Source of the DNA: Rhodoferax koreense | GTDB lineage: Bacteria > Pseudomonadota > Gammaproteobacteria > Burkholderiales > Burkholderiaceae_C | Assembly: GCF_001955695.1 (NCBI RefSeq) | Contig: NZ_CP019236.1 | Coordinates: 558,001-622,000, forward strand | DNA: 64,000 nt | Direction: 5' to 3' | Translations under genes and position numbers: made by a program | In this document: positions 46,923 through 64,000 of the stretch, piece after piece | How the letters are laid out: every line of letters begins with the position of its first letter | How positions within the stretch are numbered: the stretch's first letter is position 1 | The notes under the pieces: model-generated | Seen by the model: only the letters and a program-made list of their open reading frames with translations | What the model was told of the DNA's origin: nothing | Databases searched by the model: none

Positions 46923-46967
46923 GGCCACGGGCTCCCGGACTCCCGGCCCGTTGGCGGCCTCAGGCCG

Positions 46968-49900
46968 TCACCCCGCGCTTGCATCATCTCCGCTCCTCGT
47001 GTTTTCCGCTGCGGCAATGCTGTCTTCCGCCGCCTGGCTCTGGGGGGCACCATCCCTGTTCCGGCCGGCGCGGCCCAGGTCGGCTTTGGGACGCCGCAGC
47101 ACCGGGACCGGATCGAAGTTCTGCCAGGCCGGCGTGGTGGAGAGCATGCTGGTCAGCAAGGCTCCGCCGCGCGTGGCCCAGATCGCCAGGCCCAGCGAGA
47201 GCGCGGCGCTGCCGATCCAGACCGCGTCGACCACCGGCTCGCCGGTGGGAAGCTCGGTATGGCCCCGGTTGCTTTCCAATTCGATCGCGGGCGCTGGGGT
47301 GCGCCGTGTACCGCTCGCGGTGGCGCGCAGCCGCTCCAGCGCTTCGAGCAGTGCGTCGGTTGGCGACAGCGCGAGGTCCCGGCGCTCGGTGAGGCTGGCG
47401 ACAGGATGGAACGCGGCCAGTCTCTGCAAGTCGGCGCCATGGGGGCGCTGGGTTCGGGACGCGGCGATGGCGAGCGGCGCTACCGGCGGTCCCGACCGAT
47501 CACCCTCGTCGGCGCCCGGTTTCCCGGACACTATTGCGTCCGGTGCCGACGCCTGAATGCCGGTGGCGACCTCGGTGCCCGGCGCCGCAGGGCTGGTGGT
47601 GGCGGGCTCGGCTGGTGGCTGTGGCAGCGGCGCCACCGGGGGCGGCCGCACCGGCACTGCGATCTCGTTCTCGGGCAGCCGAACCAGGAAGCTGGCCGTG
47701 CGCGCGGAGCCATCGCTGCTGGTGGCCTGCACGACGATCTCGTAGGGAGCGCCCGGCGCGTCGCCGGCGAGGCGCTGGCTGTCGGCCACCGTGACCACTC
47801 CCGTCGTCGGGTCGATGGTGAAGCGTCCCGAGGCGCTGTCGACCAGGCTGTAGGACACCACGGCCGTGGCATCCGCATCCGATGCATGCACGGTGATGCC
47901 GACCGGTCCGCCGTTCACCACACGGCTGGCGACGATATTGGGCGCGTTGTCGGTGTCGATCAGAGGCGAGACTTGAAATTCATTGACGTCCGTCACCGTC
48001 ACCCGGATCGCCTGTGCCGTGCTTGCCATGCCGTCGCTCACCTGCACCACCACTTCGTAGACACCGTTGTGGTCCGCGTCGGAGGGGTGCTCGGCATCGG
48101 GCGCCTGCGTGAAGCGCAGCACGCCCGTGCTGGCGTCCAGCGTGAAGCGGCCGGCATCGGCGCCACCGGCGATGCTGTAGGTCAGCTGCTGTGGTGGCGT
48201 GTCGGCATCGGTGGCGGTGACCGTGGTGACGACGCTGCTGTTTTCGGGAAGGGACAGGCTGGCGTCGGCGCCGCCACCATTGCTGGTGATCGTCGGCGCG
48301 CGGTTCGGCGTCGCAAGCACCACGTCGCGCGTGGCCGCGATGCTGCCAACGCTGCCGTCGTCGACCGTGAAGCGCACGGTGCGCGTGGCTGGGGCAGGCG
48401 AGGCGCTGTCGTTGGCGAAGGTGATGCTGCGCAGCGCGGCCTGGTAGGCGGCCAGCGTCGCACTTCCGCTCAGTGTGAGCACGCCGGTGCCGGCGTCCCA
48501 ATGGCCCGTGATGCCGTTCTGGTCATTGAAGCCGAGCCTGTCATGGCCGCTTTCATAGTTGGCACTGATGGCGACACTGGCGCCGTGGAGCATGGCGTCG
48601 TCCAGGTCGGCGACCAGCAGGCCGTCGTCGATCAGGACCGCGGCTCCGCCCCGGGCGTACCCGGCAGTCCCGCCGCTGGTCACTACCGTTGGTGCGTCGT
48701 TCACCGGGGTAACGTCCACCGTCATTGTGCGCGGGGTCGGGTCGGTGTCCACGCCGCCATTGGTCGTGCCGCCGTCGTCCTGCACCTGGAAGGTGAAGCT
48801 CGCGTAAGCCGTGCCGTTGGCGTTTGCTGCTGGTGTGAACTTCAGGTTGCCGGCCGTGATGTTGGCCAGGCTGATGCTCTGGCCCGCCGCCACGGCCACG
48901 CCATTCAAGCTCAGGCTGCCGGCGTCCGGGGTTGTCGTGATCTTGACGCTCTGCAAACTGTTGCCGTCGGTATCGCTGAAGCCGAAGTCGCCGACGCCGA
49001 AGGTGTAGACCGTGTCCTCAGTGGTCGTGACCGTGTTGTTCGCACCGCTTGGCGCGCTGTTGACCGAGGTGACATTGACCGTCATCGTGCGGGGGCTCGG
49101 GTCGATGTCGACGCCGCCGTTGGCCGTGCCGCCGTTGTCCTGCACCTGGAAGCTGAAGCTGGCGTAGCCCACGCCACTGGCATTGGCCGCGGGCGTGAAC
49201 ATCAGGTCGCCGGCCGCGATGTCGGCGGCGACGACCATCTGCCCTGCGGTGACGGCCACGCCGTTCAAGGTCAGGCTGCCGGCACCGGGCGCCGTCGTGA
49301 TCTTCACGGCCAGTAGGGCATGGCCATCGACGTCGCTGAAGCCGAAGTCCGCCACGTTGAAGACATGTGCCGTGTTCTCGAAGGTCGCGACGGTCCTGTC
49401 CGTACCCGTGGGCGCATCGTTGACCGACGTCACATTGACCGTCATCGTGCGCGGGGTCGGGTCGGTGTCCACGCCGCCATTGGCCGTACCGCCGTCGTCC
49501 TGCACCTGGAACGTGAAACTCGCGTAGCCTGCACCACTGGCATTGGCCGCTGGCGTGAACTTCAGGTTGCCCGCCGTGATGTTGGCCAGGCTGATGCTCT
49601 GGCCCGCCGTCACGGCCGCGCCGTTGAGTGTCAGGTTACCGGCGCCGGGTACCGTGGCGATGCGCACACCCTGCAGGGCGTTGCCGTCCACATCGCTGAA
49701 GCCGAAGTCCGTGGCGGTGAAGATGTAGGCCGTGTCTTCGAGGGTCGAGACCGTCTTGTCGCTGCCTGTGGGCGCATCGTTGACCGACGTCACATTGACC
49801 GTCATCGTGCGCGGGGTCGGGTCGGTGTCCACGCCGCCATTGGCCGTACCGCCGTCGTCCTGCACCTGAAAGGTGAAGCTCGCATAGCCCGCACCGTTGG

Positions 49901-52900
49901 CGTTCGCGGCCGGCGTGAACTTCAGGTTGCCCGCCGTGATGTTGGCCAGGCTGATGGTCTGGCCCGCCGTCACGGCCGCGCCGTTCAAGCTCAGGCTGCC
50001 GGCGCCCGGGGTTGTCGTGATCTTGATACCCTGCAGGCTGTTGCCATCGGCATCGCTGAAGCCGAAGTCGCCGACGCTGAAGGTGTAGACCGTGTCCTCA
50101 GTGGTCGTGACCGTGTTGTTCGCACCGCTCGGCGCATCGTTGACCGACGTCACGTCGACAATCATCGTGCAGGGGCTTGGGTCGATGTCGACGCCGCCGT
50201 TGGCCGTGCCGCCGTTATCCTGCACCTGGAAGGTGAAGCTCGCGTAGCCCGCACCACTGGCATTGGCCGCTGGCGTGAACTTCAGGTTGCCCGCCGTGAT
50301 GTTGGCCAAGCTGATGCTCTGGCCCGCCGCCACGGCCACGCCGTTCAAGCTCAGGCTGCCGGCGCCCGGGGTTGTCGTGATCTTGACGCTCTGCAAACTG
50401 TTACCGTCGGTATCGCTGAAGCCGAAGTCGGCGGCAGAAAAGGCGTAGCCCGTGTCTTCCAGCGTCGTGACCGTGTTGTTCGCACCGCTTGGCGCATCGT
50501 TGACCGACGTCACGTCGACCGTCATCGTGCGCGGGGTCGGGTCGATGTCCACGCCGCCATTGGCCGTACCGCCGTCGTCCTGCACCTGGAAGGTGAAGCT
50601 CGCGTAAGCCGTGCCGTTGGCGTTTGCTGCTGGCGTGAACTTCAGATTGCCGGCCGCGATGTTGGCCAGGCTGATGGTCTGGCCAGCCGTCACGGCCACG
50701 CCGTTGAGTGTCAGGTTACCGGCGCCGGGTACCGTGGCGATGCGCACGCCCTGCAGGGCGTTGCCGTCCACATCGCTGAAGCCGAAGTCCGTGGCGGTGA
50801 AGGTGTAGGCCGTGTCTTCCAGCGTGGTCACGGTCTTGCCGGTCCCGGCGGGCGCGTCGTTCACGGACGTGATGGTGACGGTCGTGCTGCCCGAGCCGAC
50901 CAGCGCGCCGCCACTGCCCTGTACACCCGTGTTGCCATCACTGAACGACCAGACCAGCTGCACCGAGGCCGGAGGCGCATCGCTGCTGTTGGCGTAGCCG
51001 ATGGCGCGCAACACGTTGTTCACCAGCGCCTGGGTGGCGTTGCTGTCGAAGGTCAGTACCAGCGTGCCGCTGGTGTTGGTGGTCACGGTGCCGACGGTCG
51101 TGCCGCCGTAGACCAGGCTGGCACCCTGCGTCAACGCCGACAGCGCGCCCGTGGCCGCGAACAGGTCCTGGGCCTGCGCGCCGCCGCTGCGCACCAGCGT
51201 GAGCGTGGCACCGGCATAGTGGCCGGCGGCCGCCAGTTCCGTGTCCACCACGGTGGCGCCAGGTGCCAGCGCCACGGCGCCGGCGTTCTCGGTGTAGGCC
51301 GCGCTGGCGGGCACCGACAGCGCCGGCGCCGTGTTGGCGGTCTGCACGTTGGCCGCGAACTCCGAGGTCGAGCCGTAGCTGCTGGCGCCGGTCTTCTCGG
51401 TGGCCGTGGCCGTGATCCAGGCGGCGTATGTCAGCCCGGCACTGGCCAGCGTGGCGTTGATGCTGGCGTTGCCGCTGGCGTCGGTCGTCACGTCCAGGGC
51501 GCCCAGGTAGACGTTGCCCTCGCCGTGGCCGCTGCCATCCGTGCTCCCGTCGGGCATGCCGAAGAACTCGATGCGGTAGGTTTTGTTGGCCTCGCTGTCA
51601 AGGCTGCCGGTGATGTGAAACAGATTGCCCACGAGGCTGGCCGAGGCCAGGACCGGCGTGTTCTGCTGGTTGTTGGCGCCGGTGTCGGCGTCGCCCGCGT
51701 CGTTGGGCGTGACGCCGCTCGGGCCCAGGTCGATGCCCAGCCCGCCGTTGGCGTAGATGGTGTTGCCCAGAACCGCATTGCCGGTGGTCCCGTTCTGGGT
51801 GATCCAGACCCCTGCAAGGCTGCTGCCTGCGATGCGGTTGCCTTCGCCCGCGCCGGTGCCGCCGACCATGTTGTTCTGCGCACCGGCGGCGATGATCACC
51901 GACTCGCCGCCCAGGCCCAGTGGCGTGCCGCTGGCGTCGGTGCCCAGGTCGTTGCCGATCACGCGGTTGCCGGTAGCCGCCGCGCCTGTGATGTACACGC
52001 CGCCGCCCGCCGTCCGCAGGCCCGAGATCACGTTACGGTCCGCCGCCGTGGTGCCGCCGATGGTGTTGTTGGCGCTTTGCACCACCACGCCCCAGGTGGT
52101 CTGGGCCCCGGCGGCGGCGGTGTACGTGCCGTCGGCCTGGATCGGCCCCAGGTCGTTGCCAACGATGGTGTTGCCGTCGGAGCCCGTTTCCAGGTAGATG
52201 GCGATGTCGAAGCCCTGGATGGACAGCCCGCGCACTGTGCTGCCGCCGCTGCCGCCGACGAAGTCCAGGCCCACCCAGCCGCTGGCATAGCCGTTGCCCT
52301 GCAGCACGATGGCCGGGCGGTTGCCGTTGGCGGCGAAGCTGTCGTCGGTGTTGGCGTCAATGACCACGGGCCGGCTGATCTGCGGCAGCGCCGAGCCCAG
52401 CACGATGGTGTGCACGCCGGTGCCGCTGATGCCGAAGTTGATCAGCGTGGGCAGACTGCCGGCTGGCGTGTTGTTGATGGCGATGAGCGCCTCGCGCAGC
52501 GAAATGAAACCGTCCGTGCCCTTGCTGGCCAACAGCGTGGACAGGCTGGTGGTGTCGCCATCCAGGGCGTCGCTGGCGGTGTCCACGACCAGCACCGCCT
52601 GCGTGCTGGAGATGGCCACCACACTCTTGGCGAACTCCGAGGTGTCTGTGAAGGTGTTGTAGGCGGCATTGGACCTGGTGGCCGTGGCCGAGATGACGGT
52701 GCCGGTCGCCACGGTGGCCGACAGTGTGGTGGAGAACGTGGCGTTGCCAGAGGCATCGGTGGCCACGTTGACGAAGCCGATATAGGTCTGGCCCTCGCCG
52801 TAGCCGCTCGCGTCGGCACTGGTATTGGCAAACAACTCGATGCGGAAGAAGCTGTTGGCCGTGCTGTTGAACGTGCCGGCGATGGTGAACTGGCCTGCGC

Positions 52901-55900
52901 CGTCGGTCTGCGCCAGCGTCAACACCGGGAAGTTCTGCAGGTTGTTGGCGCCGGTGTCCGTGTCGCCGGGGTCGTTGGCGGTGACACCGTCGTAGCCGAG
53001 GTCGATGGCCGGGCTATTGGTGCTGTTCGCATACACCGAGTTGCCCAGGACGGCGTTGCCTGAAATGTTCGCGCCCTGCATCAAAATCGCGCCGACAGCA
53101 TTGCCCGCGATGAGGTTGCCCTCGCCGGGGTTCACGCCACCGATCGTGTTATTCTGCGAGTTCGCGAGGAGCCACACGCCGACACTGTTGAACATCAGCG
53201 GCGTCCCGCCCGCATCCGTGCCGATGTAGTTGCCCACCACGTGGTTGCCGGTGGCGCCAGCCTGCAAGACGACGGCGGCATTGCTGAAGCCTGCCATCAC
53301 GTTGCGGTCGGCCGCACTCACACCGCCGATGGTGTTGTTCGTGCCACCCGCAATGAGGACGCCGGTATAGGTGTATCTGTTGAGGTCGTTGTCGACGCCG
53401 CCGCTTGGCAGCAGACTCCCGAGGTAATTGCCCGCAATGGTGTTGCCATCCGAGCCGGCGCTGATCTGGATGGCCGGGCCTGTGATGCCATTGATGACCA
53501 AGCCGCGGATCGTGCTGCCATCGGCGTTCGCACCCAGATTCAGGCCGACGCTGACGGCGCCATTGCCGTACAGGACGATGGCGGGCCGGCTGCCGTTGGC
53601 CGCGAAACTGTCGTCCGTCGTGCCGTCGATGACCACGGGCCGGTCGATGGTCGGTAGGGTCGAACCCAGCGTGATGGTGTGCACGCCCGTGCCGGCGATG
53701 GCGAAGTTGATTTTCGTCGGCAGGCTGCCGGCCGGCGTGTTGTTGATGGCCAGCAAGGCCTCGCGCAGGCTGATGAAGCCGTCCGCGCCCTTGGTGGCCA
53801 GCAGCGTAGAGACGCTGGTGGTGTCGCCGTCCACGGTGTCGGCCGCCGTGGTCACGACCAACACGTTCTGCTGCGTGGTGTGGATGGCCACCACACTGCG
53901 CGCGAACTCGGAGGTGTCGCTGAAGCTGCCATACCCCGCCACCGATCTGGTCGCCGTGGCCGAGATGAAGGCGCCCGCCGCCACCGTGGCCGACAGCGTG
54001 GTCGAGAAGCTCGCGTTGCCGCTGCCATCGGTCAACACGTTGACGAAGCCCAGCCAGGTCTGGCCTTCGCCGTAGCCGCTGGCGCTGGCGCCGGTGTTGG
54101 CGAACAGCTCGATGCGGACGTAGGTGTTCGCCGTGCTGTTGATGCTGCCGCTGATCTCGAAGCTGCCGATGCCATCGGTGCGCGCCACCGTCAGCACGGG
54201 GAAGTTTTGCAGGTTGTTGGCACCGGTGTCGGCATCGCCTGCGTCGTTGGTCGTCACCCCGCTGGTGCCCAGGTCGATGCCCACGCCGCTGGTGCCGGCA
54301 ACGGTGTGATAGACGTGGTTGCCCAGGATCGCGTTGCCGGTGCCGCCGCTCACGGCGATGCCGTCGTAGGTGGACGCAGCCTGGTTGCTGTTGGCGACGA
54401 TGTTGCCCTGGCCCCCGCCGGTGCCGCCGATCAGATTGTTGCTGCTGGCCACCTCGATGCCATTGCGTTGCATGCCCCAGTTGGCCGTGCCCGCCGCGTC
54501 GGTGCCGATGCGGTTGCCCTGCACCGTGACGCCGCCGGCGGATGCGTCCAAGCGGATGCCGGTCTGGCTGGCGCCGGCGATCACGTTGTTGGTGAACACG
54601 GTGTTGGCGCCTGCCTGGACTGCACGGATGCCGTCGATGGGCGCACTGACCACGGCGGTGCCGGCCGCATTGGTGCCGATCAGGTTATTGTGCACCACCG
54701 TGCCGCTGCCCGCGGTGCTGATGTACACCCCATAGTCGCCGTCGGCCGCGATCACATTGCCTTCGATGCGGTTGGAGGCGCCGTCGAATACGGTGATTCC
54801 CGCCTGCGCGCCGCTGAACGCCGTGACGCCGTCGGCACCGATGCCGATGTAGTTGCCCAGGATCTGGTTGCTGTTGGCGGTCGCGCCCGAGATGATCAGG
54901 CCGTACGTGCCACCGTCTCCGTTGGTGCCCAGCACGTTGCGGTCTGCCGCGGTGCTGCCGCCCACGGTGTTGTTGGCCCCCGCGATGCGCACCGTGTAGG
55001 ACCCGTTCGCTGCCGGCGCCAGGTTGCCCGTGGCGTCGACCGCACCCAGGTAGTTGCCGGCGATGGTGTTGCCGTCTGAGCCTGCCTCCACGCTGATGGC
55101 CGCGCCGAAGAAGTTGCGGATCACTAGACCACGGATGGTGGAGCCGCCGGCGGTGGAGGTCAGTGTCAGGCCGTGGTCGCCGAGGCCGTTCCCGTCGAGC
55201 ACGATGGCTGGCCGTCCACCGTTGCCGGTGACGCTGGCGGTGTCGGTGGTGCCGTCGATGAGCACGGGCCGGGTGATCGCCGGCAGCGCCGAACCCAGCG
55301 TGATGGTGTGCACGCCGCTGCCGGCGATGCTGAAGTTGACCAGCGTCGGCAGGCTGCCGGCTGGCGTGTTGTTGATGGCCGAGATCGCTTCGCGCAGCGA
55401 GATGAAACCGTCCGAGCCCTTGTTGGCCAGCAGCGCGTAGATGTTGCTGGTGTCGCCGTTGACGGTGTCGGCGTTGGTGTCGACCACCAGCGTGGTTTGC
55501 GTGGTGGAGATCGCCAGCAGGGTGGCGGAGAACTCCGAGGTGCCAGTGAAGCTGGCGAAACCGGCAACGCTCGCCGTGGCCGTGGCCGTGATGTAGAAGC
55601 CAGCCGCCACGGTGGCGCTCAGCGTGCTGGAGAAGGTGGCGTTGCCCGAGGCATCGGTGGTGACGTTGATGAAGCCCAGGAAGGTGTTGCCTTCGCCGTA
55701 GCCGTTGGCGGTCTTCGTCGCGTTGGCGAACACCTCGATGCGGAAGAAACTGCTGGCCGTGCTGTTGAGCGTGCCGCTGACGGTGACGTTGCCGCTGCCA
55801 TCGGTCGTGACCTGCGTCAGCACCGGGAAGTTCTGCAGATTGTTGGCGCCGGTGTCGGCATCGCCCGTGTCGTTGGCCGTCACGCCGCTCGTGCCCAGGT

Positions 55901-58900
55901 CGATGCCCAGGCCGCTGGCGCCGGCGACGGTGCCGTAGATGCTGTTGCCCAGGATCGCGTTGCCGGTGGCGGTGCCGCTGGACACGGTGATGCCGTCGAA
56001 GGTCGTCGCCGCCTGGTTGGCGTTGGCGATGACGTTGCCCTGCCCCGCACTGGTGCCGCCGATCACGTTGTTCGAACCGCTGATGACGATGCCGCTCTGC
56101 TGCACGCCCCAGTTGGCCGTGCCGGCCAGGTCGGTGCCGATGCGGTTGCCGCGCACCACGTTCGAGTTGCTGCTGAGGCTGATGCCGCTGCCGGTGCCGC
56201 CGCCGATCCAGTTGTCCAGGATCTGAACGCCGCCTGGCGCACTGATCAAGATGCCCGCGGTCTGGCCGCCCAGCAGCGTGCCCGTGGCCGAGATGCCGAC
56301 GCGGTTGCCCTGGATCACGTTGCCGCTGCCCTGGCCGGAGAGGAACATCGCCTGGGCAGCGCCGGTCGCGACCACGTTGCCCTGCCCTGCGCCTGCGCCG
56401 CCGATGGTGTTGTTGGCGGCGCCCGACTGGATCGACACGGCGTTGGCCGCCGCCGTCACGCGCGTGGTGCCGGCTGCATTGGTACCGATGTAGTTGCCCT
56501 GCACTGCGTTCCCGGTGGCGCCGGCGCCGAACAACAGCACGCCGTAGCCCGCGTTGCCCTGGGCGATGACGTTGCGGTCGGCGGCGGTGCTGCCGCCGAT
56601 CACGTTGTTGGCGCTGCCCACGTAGACCACGTAGCTGCTGTTGGTCACGGTCGCGAGGTTGCCGCTGGCGTCGATGGAGCCTAGGTAGTTGCCGGCGATG
56701 GTGTTGCCGTCCGAGCCGGTGTCGAGGTAAATGGCGGCATCGGTGGCGTTGGTGATCACCAGCCCGCGCACCGTGGAGCCGCCCGAACCCGCGCCCAGGC
56801 GCAGGCTGCTGCTGGCGACGCCGTTCATGTTGACCACGACCGAGGGCACGTTGCCGCGCGCGGCGAAGCTGTCGTCCGTCGTGGCGTCGATGACGACGGG
56901 CTTGGTGATGGTCGGCAGCGCCGAGGCCAGCGTGATGGTGTTCACCCCCGTGCCGGCAAGGGCGAAGTTCACCAGGGTGGGCAGGCTGCCTGCCGGCGTG
57001 TTGTTGATCGCGGTGATCGCCTCGCGCAGCGAGATGAGGCCGTCGGCCCCCTTGCTGGCCAGAAGGGTAGAGATGCTGGTGGTGTCGCCGTTCACCGTAT
57101 CGGCATTGGTGTCCACGACCAGCACTGCCTGCGTGCTGGAAATGGCCACGACGTTCTTGGCGAATTCCGAGGTGTCGGTGAACGCGGTATAGGCCGCGCT
57201 CGTGGCCTTGGTAGCGGTGGCCGAGATCACATAGCCCGCCGGCACATCCACGCCGTTGAGCGTGGCCGCGATGCTGCCATTGCCCGAGGCGTTGGTCGCC
57301 ACGTCGGCATAGCCCAGGTAGATCTGCCCCAGGCCGTAACCACTGCTGTTGCCGCTGGCGGAGGCGAAGAACTCGATGCGGAAGTAGCTGTTCGCGGTGC
57401 TGTTGAGCGTGCCCGCCACCGTCACCTGGTTGGCCTCGTCGGTGCGGGCCAGCGTCAGCACGGGGTAGTTCTGCAGGTTGTTGGTCCCGGTGTCGGCGTC
57501 GCCTGTATCGTTGGCCGTGACGCCGTCGACGTTCAGGTCGATGCCCAGGCCGGTGTTGCCATACACGAGGTTGCGCATGTAGCTGTTGCCCGTGCCGGCG
57601 GAGCCGTACTGGCTGATGGCGACGGTGTACACGCCCCCCTGGCCGCTGAAGGCCACGATGTTGTCCAGGAACTGGTTGTTGGTGGGCCCGCTGATGGGGG
57701 CCACGGCGTCCTCCACCAGGATGCCGTTTTGCTGCACTCCCCAGTTGGCCGTGCCAGTCAGGTCGGTGCCGATGCGGTTGCCCTGGACCAGCGTGCCGCT
57801 GGAGGCGCCGTCGAGTTCGATACCGACGTGGCTGACGCCGGCGATCCAGTTGCCTTCGCCCGCGCCGGGCCCGCCGATCACGGTGTTGTCCGGGCCGTCC
57901 TCGATGTAGATGCCGTCACCGCCGCTCCCCAGCACGGTTGCGCCGTCGGCGCCTACGCCGATCCAGTTGCCCTTGAGGACGTTGTTGTCGCTGGCCTCGC
58001 CGAAAATCTGGATGCCGTCATCGCCGTTGCCGGAGATGATGTTGCACTGGTTGGCGTTCGCCCCGCCGATGGTGTTTGCGGACGCGCCGTTCTGGATGCG
58101 TACGCCATCGCCGGCATTGGCGATGGCGGCGGTGCCTGCCAGATTGGTTCCGATGTAGTTGCCGATGACCTGGTTGCCGGTGCCGGAGGCGCCATCGATG
58201 AGAACGCCATTGGCGTTGCCGGACAACAAGTTGCGGTCTGCGCCCGTGGTTCCGCCGATCACGTTGTTGGCGCCGAGCACGTCGATCGCGGCGCCGCCAT
58301 TGCCCGTGCCCTGCGCATTCCCGCTGTTGCCCAAACTCCCGATGTAGTTGCCAGCGATGGTGTTGCCGCTCGAGCCAGCGTCGATCTGGATGCCGTCGCC
58401 CTGGAAGTTGCGGATGATCAGGCCGCGGATGGTGCTGCCGCCCGAACCCGTGGCCAGTTCCAGGCCGTCGGCGTTGAGGTTGTTGCCGTCCAGGATGACG
58501 GCCGGCCGGTTGCCGTTGGCCGCGAAGCTGTTGTCGGTGGTCGCGTCCAGGATCACCGTGCCGGTGATCGTCGGCAGTGCCGAACTGAGTGTGATGGTGT
58601 GGACCGCCGTTCCCGCGATGTTGAAGTTAATCGTGTCGGTGCCCGCGTTGCCGTTGGCGTTGGTGATCGCCTGGCGCAGCGAGCCGGCGCCGCTGTCGTT
58701 GGTGTTGGTCACGGTGTACGTGGCCAACACGCCCTGCCAGCGTGCCTGCGTCTGAAGGTCGAAGGCGAGCTGGGCTTCGATGTGGCCGGTCTGCATCTCG
58801 AGCGTCCAGTTGCCGCCCAGGCTGGCCTGGCCGGTTCGGTCCACCGAAGCCGCGACATCGGCGCCCGTCAGTTGCGCCAGGCCCTGCACCAGCGCCTGGC

Positions 58901-59411
58901 CGTCGGCGCCCTGGGCCACGTCGCAGCCATAGAGCAGCAGATCGGCGCCGCCGCTCAGGTGTTCGCCCCAGCCGGCGATTTCACCGGCGCGTTGCAGCAA
59001 GGCCTGCTGGTCCAGCGTGGTGTCGCCCAGCACCACGCGGCCTTCGCTGCCGTGCGCGACCACGTGCACCCCATCGACGTCGCCCCGCTCGGCCAGCGTG
59101 CTGGAGATCAGTGCGATGCCGTCGTCGTCGGCGCCGATGCGCACCACCTCGATGTGGCGGCCCGCGGTGGCCTGCGCAGTGATGTCGGCGATCAGCATTT
59201 CGGCATCGGGCACGCGTTCGTCGATGAAGACCAGCTCGGTGGCATCGCGCGGCGCCGTCGGCGCGGGCTGCGTTTCGGTCGATGCCGTTGCGGTTTCCTG
59301 CGCCGGCCATGGCGTCGCCAAGGCCGTGGCGGCCGGATGATCGGCGGCGTAGAGGATGCGCGGCTCGATGTCTTCGAGGACGGCGCGGCGACGGCTGGCA
59401 GGGGCGTTCAT
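46968..59411 (-). CDS. Giant (4,147-residue) LEPR/DUF4347 surface-type protein with beta-helix and cadherin-like repeats
   Basis: One uninterrupted frame. Order: an N-terminal LEPR-like motif (LEDIEPRILYAAD, residues 12-24) with no classical signal peptide; DUF4347 (about 60-225) with H120 (AHGSEG) and C163 (YGCDVA); five right-handed beta-helix modules (about 230-2690), each opening with a [TN]DS/SLREA-type segment; a linking Ig-like unit; six near-identical cadherin/VCBS-like domains (about 2855-3574); and two further cadherin-type domains. After these come a Pro-rich linker (about 3925-4000), one membrane helix (WIGSAALSLGLAIWA, about 4064-4083), the segment PAWQNFDPVPVL and a charged tail. 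No RTX nonapeptides or LPXTG are seen. It follows the adaptor gene by 18 bases. Probably an exported, anchored adhesin or matrix protein; enzyme activity of the beta-helices is possible but not shown. Confidence 0.88.
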   Translation of the reverse strand: MNAPASRRRAVLEDIEPRILYAADHPAATALATPWPAQETATASTETQPAPTAPRDATELVFIDERVPDAEMLIADITAQATAGRHIEVVRIGADDDGIALISSTLAERGDVDGVHVVAHGSEGRVVLGDTTLDQQALLQRAGEIAGWGEHLSGGADLLLYGCDVAQGADGQALVQGLAQLTGADVAASVDRTGQASLGGNWTLEMQTGHIEAQLAFDLQTQARWQGVLATYTVTNTNDSGAGSLRQAITNANGNAGTDTINFNIAGTAVHTITLSSALPTITGTVILDATTDNSFAANGNRPAVILDGNNLNADGLELATGSGGSTIRGLIIRNFQGDGIQIDAGSSGNTIAGNYIGSLGNSGNAQGTGNGGAAIDVLGANNVIGGTTGADRNLLSGNANGVLIDGASGTGNQVIGNYIGTNLAGTAAIANAGDGVRIQNGASANTIGGANANQCNIISGNGDDGIQIFGEASDNNVLKGNWIGVGADGATVLGSGGDGIYIEDGPDNTVIGGPGAGEGNWIAGVSHVGIELDGASSGTLVQGNRIGTDLTGTANWGVQQNGILVEDAVAPISGPTNNQFLDNIVAFSGQGGVYTVAISQYGSAGTGNSYMRNLVYGNTGLGIDLNVDGVTANDTGDADTGTNNLQNYPVLTLARTDEANQVTVAGTLNSTANSYFRIEFFASASGNSSGYGLGQIYLGYADVATNASGNGSIAATLNGVDVPAGYVISATATKATSAAYTAFTDTSEFAKNVVAISSTQAVLVVDTNADTVNGDTTSISTLLASKGADGLISLREAITAINNTPAGSLPTLVNFALAGTGVNTITLASALPTITKPVVIDATTDDSFAARGNVPSVVVNMNGVASSSLRLGAGSGGSTVRGLVITNATDAAIYLDTGSDGNTIAGNYLGSIDASGNLATVTNSSYVVYVGSANNVIGGSTAADRNVIAQGNAGYGVLLFGAGATGNAVQGNYIGTNAAGTTRVTAAANAVSIQSGAANNTIGGAGAGQGNVVATGAAQAMFLSGQGSGNVIQGNRVGISATGTLLGGQTAGILISAPGGVQILDNWIGGGTGSGISLSSNSNVVRGNRIGTDLAGTANWGVQQSGIVISGSNNVIGGTSAGQGNVIANANQAATTFDGITVSSGTATGNAILGNSIYGTVAGASGLGIDLGTSGVTANDTGDADTGANNLQNFPVLTQVTTDGSGNVTVSGTLNSTASSFFRIEVFANATKTANGYGEGNTFLGFINVTTDASGNATFSSTLSATVAAGFYITATATASVAGFASFTGTSEFSATLLAISTTQTTLVVDTNADTVNGDTSNIYALLANKGSDGFISLREAISAINNTPAGSLPTLVNFSIAGSGVHTITLGSALPAITRPVLIDGTTDTASVTGNGGRPAIVLDGNGLGDHGLTLTSTAGGSTIRGLVIRNFFGAAISVEAGSDGNTIAGNYLGAVDATGNLAPAANGSYTVRIAGANNTVGGSTAADRNVLGTNGDGGTYGLIISGATANSNQILGNYIGIGADGVTAFSGAQAGITVFDGASNRIEGNVIAADGDYGVYISTAGSGTVVHNNLIGTNAAGTAVVSAPIDGIRAVQAGANTVFTNNVIAGASQTGIRLDASAGGVTVQGNRIGTDAAGTANWGMQRNGIEVASSNNLIGGTGGGQGNIVANSNQAASTYDGIAVSGGTGNAILGNHVYHTVAGTSGVGIDLGTSGVTTNDAGDADTGANNLQNFPVLTVARTDGIGSFEISGSINSTANTYVRIELFANTGASASGYGEGQTWLGFVNVLTDGSGNASFSTTLSATVAAGAFISATATRSVAGYGSFSDTSEFARSVVAIHTTQQNVLVVTTAADTVDGDTTSVSTLLATKGADGFISLREALLAINNTPAGSLPTKINFAIAGTGVHTITLGSTLPTIDRPVVIDGTTDDSFAANGSRPAIVLYGNGAVSVGLNLGANADGSTIRGLVINGITGPAIQISAGSDGNTIAGNYLGSLLPSGGVDNDLNRYTYTGVLIAGGTNNTIGGVSAADRNVMAGFSNAAVVLQAGATGNHVVGNYIGTDAGGTPLMFNSVGVWLLANSQNNTIGGVNPGEGNLIAGNAVGAILMQGANISGNAVLGNSVYANSTNSPAIDLGYDGVTANDPGDTDTGANNLQNFPVLTLAQTDGAGQFTIAGTFNSTANSFFRIELFANTSADASGYGEGQTYIGFVNVATDASGNATFSTTLSATVATGTVISATATRSNAAYNTFTDTSEFAKSVVAISSTQAVLVVDTASDALDGDTTSLSTLLASKGTDGFISLREALIAINNTPAGSLPTLINFGISGTGVHTIVLGSALPQISRPVVIDANTDDSFAANGNRPAIVLQGNGYASGWVGLDFVGGSGGSTVRGLSIQGFDIAIYLETGSDGNTIVGNDLGPIQADGTYTAAAGAQTTWGVVVQSANNTIGGTTAADRNVISGLRTAGGGVYITGAAATGNRVIGNDLGTDASGTPLGLGGESVIIAAGAQNNMVGGTGAGEGNRIAGSSLAGVWITQNGTTGNAVLGNTIYANGGLGIDLGPSGVTPNDAGDADTGANNQQNTPVLASASLVGNLFHITGSLDSEANKTYRIEFFGMPDGSTDGSGHGEGNVYLGALDVTTDASGNASINATLASAGLTYAAWITATATEKTGASSYGSTSEFAANVQTANTAPALSVPASAAYTENAGAVALAPGATVVDTELAAAGHYAGATLTLVRSGGAQAQDLFAATGALSALTQGASLVYGGTTVGTVTTNTSGTLVLTFDSNATQALVNNVLRAIGYANSSDAPPASVQLVWSFSDGNTGVQGSGGALVGSGSTTVTITSVNDAPAGTGKTVTTLEDTAYTFTATDFGFSDVDGNALQGVRIATVPGAGNLTLNGVAVTAGQTISLANIAAGNLKFTPAANANGTAYASFTFQVQDDGGTANGGVDIDPTPRTMTVDVTSVNDAPSGANNTVTTLEDTGYAFSAADFGFSDTDGNSLQSVKITTTPGAGSLSLNGVAVAAGQSISLANITAGNLKFTPAANASGAGYASFTFQVQDNGGTANGGVDIDPSPCTMIVDVTSVNDAPSGANNTVTTTEDTVYTFSVGDFGFSDADGNSLQGIKITTTPGAGSLSLNGAAVTAGQTISLANITAGNLKFTPAANANGAGYASFTFQVQDDGGTANGGVDTDPTPRTMTVNVTSVNDAPTGSDKTVSTLEDTAYIFTATDFGFSDVDGNALQGVRIATVPGAGNLTLNGAAVTAGQSISLANITAGNLKFTPAANASGAGYASFTFQVQDDGGTANGGVDTDPTPRTMTVNVTSVNDAPTGTDRTVATFENTAHVFNVADFGFSDVDGHALLAVKITTAPGAGSLTLNGVAVTAGQMVVAADIAAGDLMFTPAANASGVGYASFSFQVQDNGGTANGGVDIDPSPRTMTVNVTSVNSAPSGANNTVTTTEDTVYTFGVGDFGFSDTDGNSLQSVKITTTPDAGSLSLNGVAVAAGQSISLANITAGNLKFTPAANANGTAYASFTFQVQDDGGTTNGGVDTDPTPRTMTVDVTPVNDAPTVVTSGGTAGYARGGAAVLIDDGLLVADLDDAMLHGASVAISANYESGHDRLGFNDQNGITGHWDAGTGVLTLSGSATLAAYQAALRSITFANDSASPAPATRTVRFTVDDGSVGSIAATRDVVLATPNRAPTITSNGGGADASLSLPENSSVVTTVTATDADTPPQQLTYSIAGGADAGRFTLDASTGVLRFTQAPDAEHPSDADHNGVYEVVVQVSDGMASTAQAIRVTVTDVNEFQVSPLIDTDNAPNIVASRVVNGGPVGITVHASDADATAVVSYSLVDSASGRFTIDPTTGVVTVADSQRLAGDAPGAPYEIVVQATSSDGSARTASFLVRLPENEIAVPVRPPPVAPLPQPPAEPATTSPAAPGTEVATGIQASAPDAIVSGKPGADEGDRSGPPVAPLAIAASRTQRPHGADLQRLAAFHPVASLTERRDLALSPTDALLEALERLRATASGTRRTPAPAIELESNRGHTELPTGEPVVDAVWIGSAALSLGLAIWATRGGALLTSMLSTTPAWQNFDPVPVLRRPKADLGRAGRNRDGAPQSQAAEDSIAAAENTRSGDDASAG
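48691..50850 (-). repeat. Six tandem 360-bp repeats encoding cadherin/VCBS-like domains
   Basis: Six units of exactly 360 bases (120 residues each), bounded by the codons for SVNDAP or close variants at 48691, 49051, 49411, 49771, 50131, 50491 and 50851. Units share LEDTAYTFTATDFGFSDVDG, then NALQGV-type sequence. The nucleotide identity is high, so recent duplication or gene conversion is likely, and copy number may vary between strains. Confidence 0.92.
51350..58720 (-). repeat. Five beta-helix modules of about 1.3-1.6 kb
   Basis: Each module opens with a (S/F)ISLREAI-type segment, at about 58665, 57020, 55388, 53761 and 52491. It then shows NTITLGSALPTITRPVVIDG-like sequence, many (N)xIxGNYIG turns, and a closing block (GDADTGANNLQNFPVL) plus a beta-sandwich segment. 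Spacing is 1.27-1.65 kb. More diverged than the 360-bp repeats, so older. Confidence 0.8.
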
Positions 59412-59429
59412 GGTCGGATGCCGGGGCTT

Positions 59430-60362
59430 TCAGCGCGCGGCTTCGCCGACGCCGCTGGCAACGCCGACGGGCGACTGGGCAGCCGACAGGCCGAGGTCGA
59501 TCTTGCAGCGCAGGCCGGCCGGTAGGCTGGCGTCGCCGTTGGGCATGTCCAGCCTCAGCCGGAAGGTATTGCTGGCGGGGTCGAGCACGCGATCGATCTG
59601 CGCGATCTGCGCCTTGCGCGGTGCGGCTCCCGGCAATTCGGGATGCACCAGCAGTTCCTGCCCCGGACGCAGCCGGCCGAACAGCGCGGTGGGCGCCACC
59701 ACCTCCACGCGCAGGCGATGGATGGCCGCGACCTTCAACAAGGGTTTGTCCTCGAAACGTTCGCCCGGGTTGGCGTAACGCTCGGTGACCACGCCGTCGA
59801 ACGGGCTGCGCAAGACACGCTGCGAAGCCTGTGCGTCGGACATCTGCACCTCCTGCGCGAGCGTGCGCAGGTTCTCGCGCGCCTGGGCGACCTTCTCCTG
59901 GGCCACGCGCATTTCGGCCTCGGCCTGCTCCACGGCCTGCGCGGAGACGAAGTTTTCGGCCTTCAGCCGGCGTGAGCGGTCCAGCTTGATCTGCGCGAGG
60001 TCCTGGGCCGCCACCGCGCCGCGCAGCTCGGCCTCGCTCTGCGCCCGTGAACGCGCGACCTCGTTGCTGGCCCGCTCCACCTCGGCACGCAGCCGGATCA
60101 GGACCTGGCCCTTGCGCACCGTGTCGCCGCGGTCGACCTCGATCGCATCCACGATGCCGATGACGGCGCTGCCGATCTCGGCCACGCGTTCGGGCAGGAT
60201 CAGGCAGGCCAGCGGCGCCATGGTGGCCGGGGGCGGCGCCGGCTGGGCCGTGGCCGTGGCCACCGTGGCGGCCAGCATTGCCGCCATGGCCCGGCGTAGC
60301 GCTGGCGGCGTTCGGGCGGCACGGTGGCCGGGGTGATCGCGGTAGGTGTGGCGGTGTGTCAT
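59430..60362 (-). CDS. Periplasmic adaptor (membrane fusion protein, HlyD/RND-adaptor type)
   Basis: A 310-residue adaptor. It has an N-terminal membrane or signal segment (AMAAMLAATVATATAQ), a split lipoyl domain (IGSAVIGIVDAIEVDRGDTV, then RKGQVLIRL; later RVLRSPFDGVVTERYANPGE), a coiled-coil hairpin of about 100 residues, and a beta-barrel end. Its ATG at 60362 lies in ATGA with the stop of the SecA-like gene. No RND pump or ABC exporter gene is adjacent; the partners appear to be the SecA-like ATPase and the M50/HlyD protein. Upstream of the giant gene by 18 bases. Confidence 0.85.
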   Translation of the reverse strand: MTHRHTYRDHPGHRAARTPPALRRAMAAMLAATVATATAQPAPPPATMAPLACLILPERVAEIGSAVIGIVDAIEVDRGDTVRKGQVLIRLRAEVERASNEVARSRAQSEAELRGAVAAQDLAQIKLDRSRRLKAENFVSAQAVEQAEAEMRVAQEKVAQARENLRTLAQEVQMSDAQASQRVLRSPFDGVVTERYANPGERFEDKPLLKVAAIHRLRVEVVAPTALFGRLRPGQELLVHPELPGAAPRKAQIAQIDRVLDPASNTFRLRLDMPNGDASLPAGLRCKIDLGLSAAQSPVGVASGVGEAAR

Positions 60363-62359
60363 TCGATCATTCCACAAAAGGCCAGGCTGTCGTCCTGGGC
60401 CAAGTCGTTTCGAAACAATTGGCGGCGCCGGCGGGCCTGGCGGCTTTCTTCACGGTGCTGTACCCAAAGGCGCCAGCCCCGCTGCAGCCAGGCGGGCAGG
60501 GGAATCCGGCCGTCCACCGAAGCCCGGCCGCGCCACCAGCGCCACCATGCGCTGGCCAGGCCTTGCGGTCCGAGCGCAGCCCCGGGGCCGGGCACGAGCC
60601 AGATCTCCCCGCTGCCCGGCTCGCCCTGGCGTGCCGCGCGGCCCAGCAGCTGGCGGTCGTGGCGCCTCGATGCATTGCGCTGGCAACTCAGCACGTGCAG
60701 GCCCCCCGCGGCCAGGGCTTGCGCATCGACGTGGATGTCGGTGCCGCGCCCGGCCATGTTGGTGGCCACGGTGACCTGGCCGCGCCGGCCGGCACACGCC
60801 ACGACGTGCGCTTCCTGCGCATCGTGGCGCGCATCGAGCACTTCGTGCGCGATGCCGGCTTCCCTCAGGGCTTGCGCCATCGCGTGCGAGGCCTCGACCG
60901 AGTCGCAGCCGATGAGGACCGGCCGCCCGGCCGCCACCAGCAGGCGGGCCCGCGCCACCGCGGCGCGACGCCGCGCGGCCTCGTCGACATACAGCCGCGC
61001 CGGCCAGGCCTGGCGCCGGCTCGGCAGCCGCGCTGGCACTTGCACCATGCGGCAGCCGTACAGCGTGCGCAGTTCGGCCCGGGCCTCGCGCAGGGTGCCG
61101 CTCATGCCGCCGAGCCGGTGATAGCGGCGGAAGAACCGCTGGAAGGTGATCTGCGCCAGCGTTTCCATCTCGGCGGGCACCTGGCAGCCTTCCTTGATGG
61201 AGACCAGCGCATGCAGGCCGCGCGACCACTTGCGGCCTTCGGCGATGCGGCCGCTCACCGGATCGACGATGGCGATTTCCTGTCCACCGCGACGATCGGT
61301 GGCCGGCACGAGCACGTAGTCCCGGTCGCGCGCCAGCGCGTGCCGCGCGGTGAGCGCCGTGGCCAGGGTCTCGTCGCGGTGACGCGAGTTCAACCACAGC
61401 GGACCGAGCCCTGCCGTGAGTGCGGCGATGCGCGTGCGGCCGGCGTCGGTCAGCTGGACCCGCCGGTCGTGCGTGTGCAGGCGGAAATCCTCGTCCTGCA
61501 CCAGCCGGGCCGACAGTGCATAGGCCTGCCACAGGAAGGCACGGTCGGCGGCATGCGCCACCTCGCGCGTCAGGATCAGGGGCATCTGCGCCTCGTCGAC
61601 CAGGATGTTGTCGGCCTCGTCGATCACGGCCATGCACAGGCCGCGCAGCAACGTTGGCGCCACCTCGGCCGCGGCGAGGGCCTGCACCCGGCGTTGCAGG
61701 GCCTGCCGGGGCGAGCCGTGGGTCAGGCGGTCGCGCAGGTAGTCGAAGGCGACTTCCCGCGCGGTGACGTACACCACATGCGCGGCATAGGCCTCGCGTC
61801 GCATGTCGGCCGACTGGCGCGCGGTGACGAAAGCCACGCGCAGGCCGAGCAGGGCGTAGAAGGGCGCGAAGGTCCCGGCGTCGCGTTCCACCAGGTAGTC
61901 GTTGGCGGTGAGCACGTGCACGGGAATGCCGGCCAGCGCGCCGACGCCGGCGGCCAGCGCCGCGGCCAGCGACTTGCCCTCGCCGGTGGCCATCTCCGCC
62001 ATGTCGTTGCCGAGCATCGCCAGCGCGGCCATCAGCTGCTCGACATAGGGCGTCCAGCCCAGTGCGCGCCGCGCCGCTTCGGCCGCATGCGCGCAGGCCT
62101 GCACCAGCACGTCGCGCCGCCAGCCCTCGCGCAGCATCCGCTGCTGCACGGCCTCGCCTTGCGCGGTGAAGGCCGCCGCCGGCAACGTTTGCAAGGCTCG
62201 GGCCTGGCGTTCTGCCACTTCGGCACGGCTGCGCAGGCTGCCCGGCCAGCCGGGAACCAGCGCAGGCGCCCGCCGCCAGTTGCGCGGACCGGCGGGTTCG
62301 GCACGCTCCGGGTATTGGCCCCAACGCAGGCCGGGAATGGGAAGGGCGGCGTTGTTCAT
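60359..62359 (-). CDS. Shortened SecA-like translocase ATPase
   Basis: A 666-residue relative of SecA (usual length about 850-930). Motor motifs are intact: Walker A MATGEGKS (residues 123-130), DEAD-type VIDEADNILVDEA (about 244-256), SGTLREA, NMAGRGTDI (about 534) and QLLGRAARQGEPG (about 569). The C-terminal helical wing/scaffold region and the zinc-binding tail are absent or minimal. Not the housekeeping secA, which should be elsewhere. Coupled by ATGA to the genes on both sides. Probably drives export of the giant protein; inferred from position. Confidence 0.86.
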   Translation of the reverse strand: MNNAALPIPGLRWGQYPERAEPAGPRNWRRAPALVPGWPGSLRSRAEVAERQARALQTLPAAAFTAQGEAVQQRMLREGWRRDVLVQACAHAAEAARRALGWTPYVEQLMAALAMLGNDMAEMATGEGKSLAAALAAGVGALAGIPVHVLTANDYLVERDAGTFAPFYALLGLRVAFVTARQSADMRREAYAAHVVYVTAREVAFDYLRDRLTHGSPRQALQRRVQALAAAEVAPTLLRGLCMAVIDEADNILVDEAQMPLILTREVAHAADRAFLWQAYALSARLVQDEDFRLHTHDRRVQLTDAGRTRIAALTAGLGPLWLNSRHRDETLATALTARHALARDRDYVLVPATDRRGGQEIAIVDPVSGRIAEGRKWSRGLHALVSIKEGCQVPAEMETLAQITFQRFFRRYHRLGGMSGTLREARAELRTLYGCRMVQVPARLPSRRQAWPARLYVDEAARRRAAVARARLLVAAGRPVLIGCDSVEASHAMAQALREAGIAHEVLDARHDAQEAHVVACAGRRGQVTVATNMAGRGTDIHVDAQALAAGGLHVLSCQRNASRRHDRQLLGRAARQGEPGSGEIWLVPGPGAALGPQGLASAWWRWWRGRASVDGRIPLPAWLQRGWRLWVQHREESRQARRRRQLFRNDLAQDDSLAFCGMIE

Positions 62360-64000
62360 GTGGATGGGTTGAAGTGCCCGAGGAAGAGTTGCTGCAGCTG
62401 GCGCATGGCCTGGAAGGCGATCGGCCGCGTGCCGTGGTCGAAGCGCACCAGCGCGCGTGCACCAATCAACTCGCTGCGCTTGGCGTCGGCAGATCGGGCG
62501 GCATCGGCGAGTTCCACGTCGAGCACGACCACCGGCTGCCGTGGCGTCAGGCCCTGCCTGTCGCCAGGGTCGGTGGCGATGCGGCCGCCAGCCGTGTCGC
62601 CGAGCGCCGCGCTGGGCAGGCGCGTGGCGGCGCCCGGCACGCTGTTGCCGATGCGGCCGGCATGCACGCTTGCGCTGTCGTCGGCCAGCCGCACCCGCAC
62701 GTCGGACGGGCCGCTGCGCACCAGGTCGGCCTCCTGCTGCGGCAACGCAACACGTATCACGGTCGGTGCCGGGGTGAGCAGGTAGCCGATCGGGTCGCCG
62801 CGGCGGTGGAACTGGCCGACCACCTCGTCCTGCTGCGACAGCACCAGCAGGCCGTCGCTCTGCGCCCGGATCTCACGCCGGCCCAGCTTGTCGTCCAGCC
62901 GTGCGAGTTCGGCCTGGGCATAGGCCAGGCGTTCGCGCAGGTCGGGCGCGTCCTGGGGCGCCAGGTCGATGGCGCGGAACAGCAGCACGTCGAGCTCGGC
63001 GGCGTCGGCGACCAGCGTGGCGCGTTGCGCCGCGAGCTGCGGATCGTCCAGGGTGGCGATCACGTCACCGGCGCGCACGCGCTGGCCATCGACCGCGTGC
63101 AGGGCCACGACGAAGCCGTCGGTCCCGGCGCGGATCTGCGCCTGCTCCGGCAGCCAGACCACGCCTTCGGCCAGCGTGTTGTAGGGCAACGGCAGCCCGC
63201 CCAGCAAGCCGGCCATCAGCACGCCTGTCGCGGTGGCGCGCCAGGCGGCACGCCGCCGCTCGCCGTCTTCGGTGGGCGCGGCGCGCAGCATCTGTGCCAC
63301 GCGCCAAAGCGGCAGTCCGATGTTGGCGATCAGCATCATCGTGCCCACGAACACGCCCACCAGCGCAGAGAAGCTGCCGACCCACAGGCCGACCACCAAC
63401 GACAGCACCAACCTGTACACCCAGGACAGCGGCGCGTAGACGCGCAGCCAGAAGCGCTCGCCCGGCAGCACGTCGATGGGCGCGCGCGTACGGATGCCGA
63501 ACAGCCGGCGGCCCAGCCCTTCGGCCCAGTAGCGCCCGCTGCGCGTGGCCAGGTTGCGCAGGTCCAGCAGGTCGCAGAAGACGTAGTAGCCGTCGTAGCG
63601 CAGCAGCGGGTTGCCGTTGGTGAGCAGCGTCGACAGGCCGCCGATGAGCATGGTGACGAAGGCGACGTCGCGCACCACGCCGGGCTGCGCCGCCAGCCAG
63701 ACCGCCATGGCCAGTGCCGCCATGAACAGCTCGGCCATGATGCCGGCGGCGCTCACCAGCGCACGCTGGTGGCGGCTGCGCAGGCCGTCGGCCGCGGAGG
63801 CGTCCACGAAGGGCACCGGGTTCAGCAGGATCAGGCTGATGCCGGCCAGCCGCACGTGTTCGCCGTAGCGACGCAGGGCCAGCGCATGGGCCGCCTCGTG
63901 CACGGTCTTGATCAGCGGGTACATCAGCCAGGCCATGAGCAGGTAGCCGGGCGAGCGCAGCACCTTGTCGGCGTCGAGCAGCAACTCGCTCCAGTGCATG
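62356..64000 (-). CDS. M50 metalloprotease fused to HlyD-type adaptor (N-terminus beyond window)
   Basis: The visible 547 residues start at an ATG at 63999 that is probably internal; the frame runs off the window edge. The first half is a polytopic membrane domain with the zinc site H34-E-A-A-H38 (visible numbering, in KTVHEAAHAL) and the second M50 motif NPLLRYDGYYVF near residue 130. The second half is a periplasmic HlyD-like adaptor with a lipoyl-type segment (GTDGFVVALHAVDGQRVRAG, then DVIATL) and a hairpin. Similar 'peptide zinc metalloprotease'/HlyD fusions occur in export loci. The stop overlaps the SecA-like start (ATGA). Confidence 0.82.
   Translation of the reverse strand, partial: MHWSELLLDADKVLRSPGYLLMAWLMYPLIKTVHEAAHALALRRYGEHVRLAGISLILLNPVPFVDASAADGLRSRHQRALVSAAGIMAELFMAALAMAVWLAAQPGVVRDVAFVTMLIGGLSTLLTNGNPLLRYDGYYVFCDLLDLRNLATRSGRYWAEGLGRRLFGIRTRAPIDVLPGERFWLRVYAPLSWVYRLVLSLVVGLWVGSFSALVGVFVGTMMLIANIGLPLWRVAQMLRAAPTEDGERRRAAWRATATGVLMAGLLGGLPLPYNTLAEGVVWLPEQAQIRAGTDGFVVALHAVDGQRVRAGDVIATLDDPQLAAQRATLVADAAELDVLLFRAIDLAPQDAPDLRERLAYAQAELARLDDKLGRREIRAQSDGLLVLSQQDEVVGQFHRRGDPIGYLLTPAPTVIRVALPQQEADLVRSGPSDVRVRLADDSASVHAGRIGNSVPGAATRLPSAALGDTAGGRIATDPGDRQGLTPRQPVVVLDVELADAARSADAKRSELIGARALVRFDHGTRPIAFQAMRQLQQLFLGHFNPST

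Follow-up and report, generated by a model that had tools for sequence, protein, structure and literature searches.

The window analysed here, a stretch of 64,000 nucleotides from Rhodoferax koreense (contig NZ_CP019236.1, positions 558,001 to 622,000), carries at its end, on the minus strand, the gene of a giant protein and the genes of a putative machinery for its export and processing. Four consecutive open reading frames placed at 46968-64000 by an initial annotation were recovered at these positions: a fusion of an M50 peptidase with a HlyD-type part (62356..64000), a short SecA-like protein, here called mini-SecA (60359..62359; 666 amino acids, aa), a periplasmic adaptor of the HlyD/RND_mfp type (59430..60362; 310 aa from its ATG; TIGR01730 above cut-off, HlyD_D23 and HlyD_3), and the giant, the presumed substrate (46968..59411; 4,147 aa), an open frame with DUF4347, Beta_helix, Big_9 and cadherin domains. 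The reported coupling of the genes was also found: the M50 and SecA genes overlap by ATGA, as do the SecA and adaptor genes (the latter pair using the adaptor ATG at 60362, the TTG at 60377 being unneeded), and 18 bases separate the adaptor stop from the ATG of the giant. The domain calls (SecA_DEAD, PPXD and NBD2; M50 and HlyD; HlyD/RND_mfp; DUF4347, cadherin and Big) held, except that the M50 protein had been described from an incomplete gene cut by the window edge. The whole gene starts at G000:C1:622524, which leaves about the first 175 aa outside the window, and encodes 722 aa (L005:1356-3524 of the flanking stretch) with an N-terminus resembling PqqD and the recognition element (RRE) of ribosomally synthesised and post-translationally modified peptides (RiPPs). 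A further gene of the operon (L005:3532-4905), 7 bases before the M50 start, encodes a HlyD protein of 457 aa with one evident hydrophobic segment (judged by eye), which suggests an inner-membrane HlyD. The full minus-strand operon comprises five genes, encoding HlyD, RRE/PqqD-M50-HlyD, mini-SecA, periplasmic adaptor and giant.

Machinery proteins, giant and a second module

The mini-SecA consists of the nucleotide-binding domains NBD1 and NBD2, the PPXD and the first part of the scaffold helix (PF07517, PF01043, PF21090), without the helical wing and the two-helix finger; neither of the two copies in the genome gave a match to PF07516 (SecA_SW). The family profile aligns to residues 11-608 of the 783 of Bacillus subtilis SecA (3jv2), the protein ends at about residue 612 of the latter, and the aligned part is 34% identical. 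The window copy has the ATPase motifs TGEGKS (Walker A), DEAD and QLLGRAARQG (motif VI); all three patterns occur in 100 of 109 mini-SecA frames, one is absent in four and none is present in five. Its predicted structure (pLDDT 88.5) fits the SecY-engaged SecA 6itc with a root-mean-square deviation (rmsd) of 2.7 over 592 positions. Like SecA and SecA2 it has NBD1, PPXD, NBD2 and the ATPase motifs, but it differs in the missing SecA_SW, in its early end and in its position outside the clade of housekeeping SecA in the tree, where the window copy forms a long branch; because of this position a recent truncation of a housekeeping SecA was rejected. Besides the two mini-SecAs the genome encodes, as its third SecA, a housekeeping SecA in a frame of 944 aa.

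The M50 fusion has an intact HExxH and an intact NGNPLLRYDGY. Its matches to the M50 family and to the daptide M50 protease NF041824 (E 1.3e-23) stay below the cut-offs. The N-terminal domain has the fold of PqqD and the lasso RRE, a likeness to leader-binding RREs from which leader binding is predicted. HExxH together with a conserved NP..DG motif is found in 44/44 and 79/80 of the M50 family members, and 16 control M50 proteins have HExxH (16/16) but never the exact second pattern (0/16), five of them showing the looser NPF[ML]RFDGY. The structural model places eight helices of at least 17 residues between positions 158 and 444. As in RRE proteins of RiPP systems (PqqD, lasso B1) and the daptide protease, a leader-binding-type fold and an M50 protease are present, here in one chain; unlike in those systems, the chain is fused to HlyD, the neighbours are giants and not small peptides, and the NF041824 score is below cut-off. 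A GAF domain in the anchored HlyD protein is weak in P0007 (19.3 bits, cut-off 22.4) and was not found in P0006.

The giant had been described as lacking a Sec signal, and indeed no hydrophobic segment occurs in its first 60 residues; two features went unmentioned, an N-terminal motif and a hydrophobic segment near the C-terminus. The motif, LEDIEPRILYAADH (residues 12-25; 59337..59378), is the presumed leader or export signal and resembles LEPR-XLL by sequence pattern only, in a divergent form (ILYAAD), the protein giving no match to NF012209 (LEPR-8K) at E 0.001. It is followed by the DUF4347 domain (residues 60-229; 58725..59234; PF14252, E 8.8e-52). The C-terminal hydrophobic segment (residues 4060-4082; 47166..47234) reaches a Kyte-Doolittle value over 19 residues (1.71 at 4060) that no other part of the protein attains, and close behind stands the tail motif WQNFDPVPVL (residues 4096-4105; 47097..47126), with relatives in P0011 (PAWQNFDPVPVL; N-terminal motif LEDVEPRILYAADH), P0014 (PAWQSFDPLPIL) and L141 (WRQVDPLPVL). 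Three Comamonadaceae-type genomes encode giants with 57-61% identity to the C-terminal part of the window giant. The giants of Rhodoferax WC2427, Comamonadaceae OS-1 and Variovorax HJSM1_2, which share this C-terminus, seemingly lie on contigs with mini-SecA relatives (the top two matches and one 439-aa partial copy); for a fourth giant (P0014) none was listed. As a general signal for release by M50 the hydrophobic segment was rejected, occurring in 14/55 tails (the DPxPxL tail in 1/55), and this role is kept as a possibility for giants like that of the window.

A second complete module lies in the same genome at G000:C1 ~1,919,500-1,948,145 (L006:6503-20000 and L008:1-15644) in a gene order unlike that of the window: giant 2, anchored HlyD (609 aa, weak GAF), RRE-M50-HlyD (715 aa), mini-SecA (663 aa) and adaptor (274 aa). 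Giant 2, of 7,274 aa from its ATG, bears the motif EPLEPRLLMSAE and scores 22.2 bits with NF012209, above the 17-bit cut-off; both giants share with LEPR-XLL proteins an N-terminal motif in a very long repetitive protein, that of the window being divergent. The machinery proteins of the two loci are 35-42% identical (adaptors 40%), while the giants differ. The second M50 copy matches NF041824 with E 2.2e-46, below cut-off, and the PqqD domain PF05402 above cut-off. No HlyB-type ABC transporter was found among the scanned neighbours of this locus. With a second copy beside another giant, 44 more full-score places of the M50 gene in 398 genomes and at least 80 loci in a wider scan, the pairing of module and giant goes beyond chance.

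Distribution of the module and of LEPR giants

We searched 398 genomes of the phylum with a two-row M50 profile, which matched in 89. Two candidates per genome were scored for M50, and three for mini-SecA, which means that further copies were missed. The M50 scores split into two groups, 46 places with at least 365 bits over nearly the whole query and the others with at most 280 bits; 44 of the 46 were fetched as new family loci (the other two being those of the window genome itself) and 16 lower-scoring loci served as controls. In 41 of the 44 loci the M50 gene has a SecA-related frame as a neighbour (absent in L029 and L033; L031 is at a contig end), four of the 41 lacking the ATPase motifs and two being split; an anchored HlyD is present in 40 and an adaptor in 35. 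Among the controls, a mini-SecA was found in none, a HlyD relative in 15 and an adaptor in six. Searched on its own, the mini-SecA profile separates 44 places (at least 646 bits) from housekeeping SecA (at most 591 bits), and 43 of these adjoin an M50-HlyD gene (39 listed within 5 kb, four on reading the stretch), the last being at a contig end. The three highest-scoring M50 genes of the lower group, with 226-280 bits (G034:C32, G061:C30 and G165:C30), were aligned without the RRE part yet stand beside a mini-SecA, and no LEPR match was listed on their contigs.

In the same genomes, any frame of 800 aa or more that scored 17 bits or more with NF012209 was counted as a LEPR giant. The co-occurrence whose absence the initial annotation had named as evidence against its proposal was found: LEPR giants go with M50-HlyD in 58 of 59 genomes and in 35 of 35 genera, the exception being an 86% complete genome (G212) of a genus that otherwise has the gene; 11 genera have M50 only and 167 have neither. 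The overlap with mini-SecA is 31 of 59 genomes, and for this reason the motif is considered to go with the M50 gene and not with SecA. Among the LEPR giants, 47 score 22 bits or more; for 29 of these a listed M50 or mini-SecA gene is on the same contig (24 within 12 kb, five farther), and the remaining 18 are on other contigs. The DUF4347/LEPR marker proposed earlier stood in its LEPR part; DUF4347 proved looser and was rejected as a marker of the system, 20 of the 95 genomes with it having no M50 gene. One LEPR giant (G061:C115:112865, minus strand) has an open frame of 19,427 residues.

A wide scan covered 84,980 species genomes, and the best 80 loci of at least 589 stretches were examined. 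They come from Beta-, Gamma- and Alphaproteobacteria, Desulfobulbaceae and other deltaproteobacterial genomes, Nitrospiraceae and Rokubacteria, and show an anchored HlyD in 74/74 and a mini-SecA in 72/76 eligible loci, a frame of at least 1,500 aa in 44/55, and a same-strand giant upstream in 42/60. Frames of at least 1,500 aa occur in 0/20 arbitrary 20-kb windows (six genomes), compared with 20/26 full-length family loci and 15/16 controls; for frames of at least 800 aa the values are 9/20, 22/26 and 16/16. The M50 gene is also present on 13 of 72,556 plasmid records (E 1e-60), in some of which its product is named 'PqqD family peptide modification chaperone'. The clearest case is Methylosinus pMSC49a, with an 8,847-aa giant (FDTLEPRVLLNAD), a DUF3467 gene, HlyD, M50 ('PqqD family protein'), mini-SecA, adaptor and TolC. 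The small DUF3467 gene (L188:2247-2567) lies between giant and anchored HlyD in Methylosinus, and the mini-SecA of pMSC49a (L175:17222-19138), which scores 870 bits with the family profile, is annotated as 'prepilin peptidase'.

These neighbourhoods show that a conserved gene set (anchored HlyD, RRE-M50-HlyD, mini-SecA, soluble adaptor and sometimes a TolC-type channel) stands beside predicted giants, many of them LEPR-tagged. A TolC-type channel is not adjacent in the window genome; elsewhere OEP matches were obtained in 16 frames, and a cluster with an OEP representative is present in 14/44 sampled loci. A cluster whose single scanned representative is a ShlB/POTRA (TpsB-type) protein is present in 10/44, confined to one group (L018:3934-6030 and nine more loci of L018-L030). 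A SapC gene (PF07277) lies between M50 and mini-SecA at L101:12206-13069; frames of similar size, identified by size alone, take this position in L103, L105, L109, L118 and L143, and a cluster that by eye looks like SapC is found in nine family loci.

The mini-SecA is missing nearby in 16/16 sampled M50 relatives outside the main clade, in 4/76 eligible loci of the best 80 and in 2/44 family loci. In L039, L046, L049, L051 and L112 pseudo-SecAs of about the usual length (that of L051 is truncated at the contig end) take the mini-SecA position and have no Walker A, DEAD or motif VI. In L042, L043 and L137 the gene is split into two or three frames, by frameshift or assembly error. The M50 tree unites the controls in one clade (100/100) and places SecA-less and dead-SecA loci among SecA-bearing ones, with a weak backbone; on its well-supported branches the dead-SecA label needs at least three changes, so that motor function was probably lost repeatedly, and a single origin of the SecA-less loci is allowed. 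Because of such loci the mini-SecA was rejected as an obligatory part, and M50-HlyD and the adaptors seem to form the core of the system. Where no working mini-SecA is present, another source of energy must serve, and any mechanism must allow for the pseudo-SecA loci.

Around the window operon no match for an ABC exporter or TpsB, both reported as missing by the initial annotation, nor for TolC, was obtained among the scanned neighbouring frames, which comprise GMC oxidoreductase, OsmC, APH, Hsp90 and Lhr on one side and PAS-GGDEF, a potassium transporter and others on the other. The PAS-GGDEF gene encodes a diguanylate cyclase (45372-46928, minus strand) and follows the giant gene downstream on its strand after about 40 bases; control of the giant by cyclic di-GMP through this adjoining gene is possible.

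Motif types and M50 classes

The N-terminal motif was read in 40 LEPR places picked for sharing a contig with a listed module (except L212), together with the second locus of the window genome (L008) and G287 (L176). All places had been found with one model, and the motif was readable in 41 of the 42, L212 having none; the class was taken from the M50 tree where the locus was included and otherwise from the score group or the nearest relative. The motif types differ by M50 class: LEPRxLLS[AG][DE] in class A (SecA branch 1), LE[ED]RxxLSA[DE] in class B (SecA branch 2) and LEPRxxxD[GA] in class C (controls without SecA). In class A (n=17) S follows the hydrophobic pair in 15 and P follows LE in 15, LE[ED]R...SA occurs in 8/8 of class B, and in 16/16 of class C LEPR is combined with D in place of S. 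Fisher tests gave p values of 1.5e-9 (S versus D) and 4e-5 (P, A versus B), or 5e-9 and 1e-4 without L209 and L220, which were missed by the first pattern and added on reading; all these values are too small, because G006 and G014 belong to the same genus and other genomes are related. Four genomes (G014, G006, G105 and G117) contain two classes, each with its own motif type. This coupling of motif and class, which holds even within one genome, suggests that the N-terminal segment is likely read by the machinery, and is the strongest sign of such reading.

Proposed export of giant proteins and alternative explanations

The initial annotation took the gene combination to suggest a secretion route outside the textbook types. 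The combination is not new: according to passages of PMC4452313 (Kamneva, Poudel and Ward 2015) it had already been described, as a Type I secretion-related locus with a secondary SecA_DEAD protein whose broader role was 'completely unknown'. That locus has the same four genes, GAF/HlyD, Peptidase_M50/HlyD, SecA_DEAD without or with a fragment of SecA_SW, and HlyD/biotin_lipoyl, sometimes with OEP, and the loci studied here have the arrangement by which it is recognised (SecA_DEAD without SecA_SW beside M50/HlyD, GAF-HlyD and HlyD/biotin_lipoyl), with GAF weak or not found. The same passages propose that SecA may be the ATPase replacing the ABC transporter and that M50 may form a pore. In the main text of that paper LEPR, giant, PqqD and cadherin occur 0 times; beyond it, we add the LEPR giants, the motif classes, the RRE-like domain, the SecA-less and dead-SecA variants and the wider M50-HlyD family. 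Substrates, signal and its classes, RRE-like domain and these variants were not found by our searches of open-licence PMC papers. A LEPR-XLL giant of ~8,000 aa in cold-water Vibrio is reported in a passage of PMC10868602 that names no exporter, the term LEPR-XLL also occurs in PMC9611531, and the passages of the polymorphic-toxin paper PMC3482391 contain nothing on the module. The module, itself already known, is regarded here as a variant of Type I-like secretion. With the Type I system (HlyB/HlyD/TolC) it shares HlyD-type adaptors, a TolC-type channel in some loci and large repetitive substrates without a Sec signal, but no HlyB-type ABC transporter stands beside it among the scanned neighbours, its ATPase is of SecA type or missing, and its proposed signal is N-terminal. 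The Type I secretion signal is C-terminal.

The comparisons of gene content and motifs lend good support to the central proposal of the initial annotation, a role of the module genes in handling the giant, and the operon is probably a dedicated machine for leader-guided export and processing of giants. The steps of such a mechanism are given here in the order of their support. The LEPR segment would be a leader that the machinery reads, the simplest candidate for the reader being the RRE domain at the N-terminus of the M50 protein. The M50 zinc protease, which looks active, would then process the substrate, either at the leader or, in giants like that of the window, at the C-terminal membrane anchor. 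In most lineages the mini-SecA would clamp the unfolded chain and drive it with ATP into an inner-membrane path formed by the M50 protein or by SecYEG. Three HlyD-type proteins would bridge to an outer-membrane channel (of TolC type or possibly, in certain lineages, a pore of TpsB type), and the giant would reach the surface. Weighing against the link between LEPR giants and the M50 gene is that 31 genomes have the M50 gene and no LEPR match as defined above.

The SecA ancestry and fold of the mini-SecA, the resemblance of its predicted model to SecY-engaged SecA (6itc and 5eul; rmsd 2.7) and the accessory SecA2 proteins known in other bacteria (mentioned in passages of PMC4452313) might suggest that the ordinary Sec route takes the giant across the inner membrane, helped by the mini-SecA as a SecA2-like accessory factor, and that HlyD/M50 are limited to processing or release. 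We consider this doubtful, because the giant has no N-terminal hydrophobic signal, SecA_SW is missing in both copies and the family profile stops at residue 608 of the B. subtilis protein, and HlyD-type adaptors are present in nearly all examined loci, with TolC in some. These adaptors and TolC suggest transport and also weigh against the view that the module only modifies the giant (by leader removal or another RiPP-like peptide modification) while export occurs by other means; this is quite unlikely, since the neighbour clusters, few of which were scanned, revealed no recurrent modifying enzyme apart from SapC in a minority, even though the M50 protein is akin to the daptide metalloprotease (as seen in the second-locus copy), has an RRE-like domain and carries the chaperone name in plasmid records.

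The ShlB/POTRA cluster could mean that the giant is in truth exported through TpsB or by another outer-membrane route, the module performing the inner-membrane steps only. This is very unlikely, given that the cluster is limited to one locus group and that the OEP-represented cluster stands in 14/44 sampled loci. A search with PF03865 (TpsB) gave no match in the window genome, and none in the control genomes either. Finally, giant and module might be co-located by joint spread on a mobile island with no working link, to which the M50 genes on plasmids and the lateral transfer of the locus inferred in passages of PMC4452313 would fit; this is extremely unlikely, because the co-occurrence is genome-wide even where giant and module are on different contigs and because the motif type follows the M50 type also within single genomes.

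With regard to the origin of the leader-guided exporter, we tentatively suggest, at somewhat less than even confidence, that exporters of giant proteins form a superfamily that arose from machinery handling leader peptides in RiPP and bacteriocin export, or that has components in common with it. Its fusion of RRE, protease and adaptor would read class-specific leaders, and a truncated SecA would have been added in one branch, replacing the ABC transporter, and later lost or inactivated more than once. With 4,000 to ~19,000 residues, such giants rank with the largest proteins that bacteria produce. If the proposal is true, it would give the LEPR-XLL giants an export partner and a module in print since 2015 a role, it would add a secretion route in which SecA replaces the ABC transporter, and the motif types would provide a readable signal code that predicts which giant pairs with which machine.

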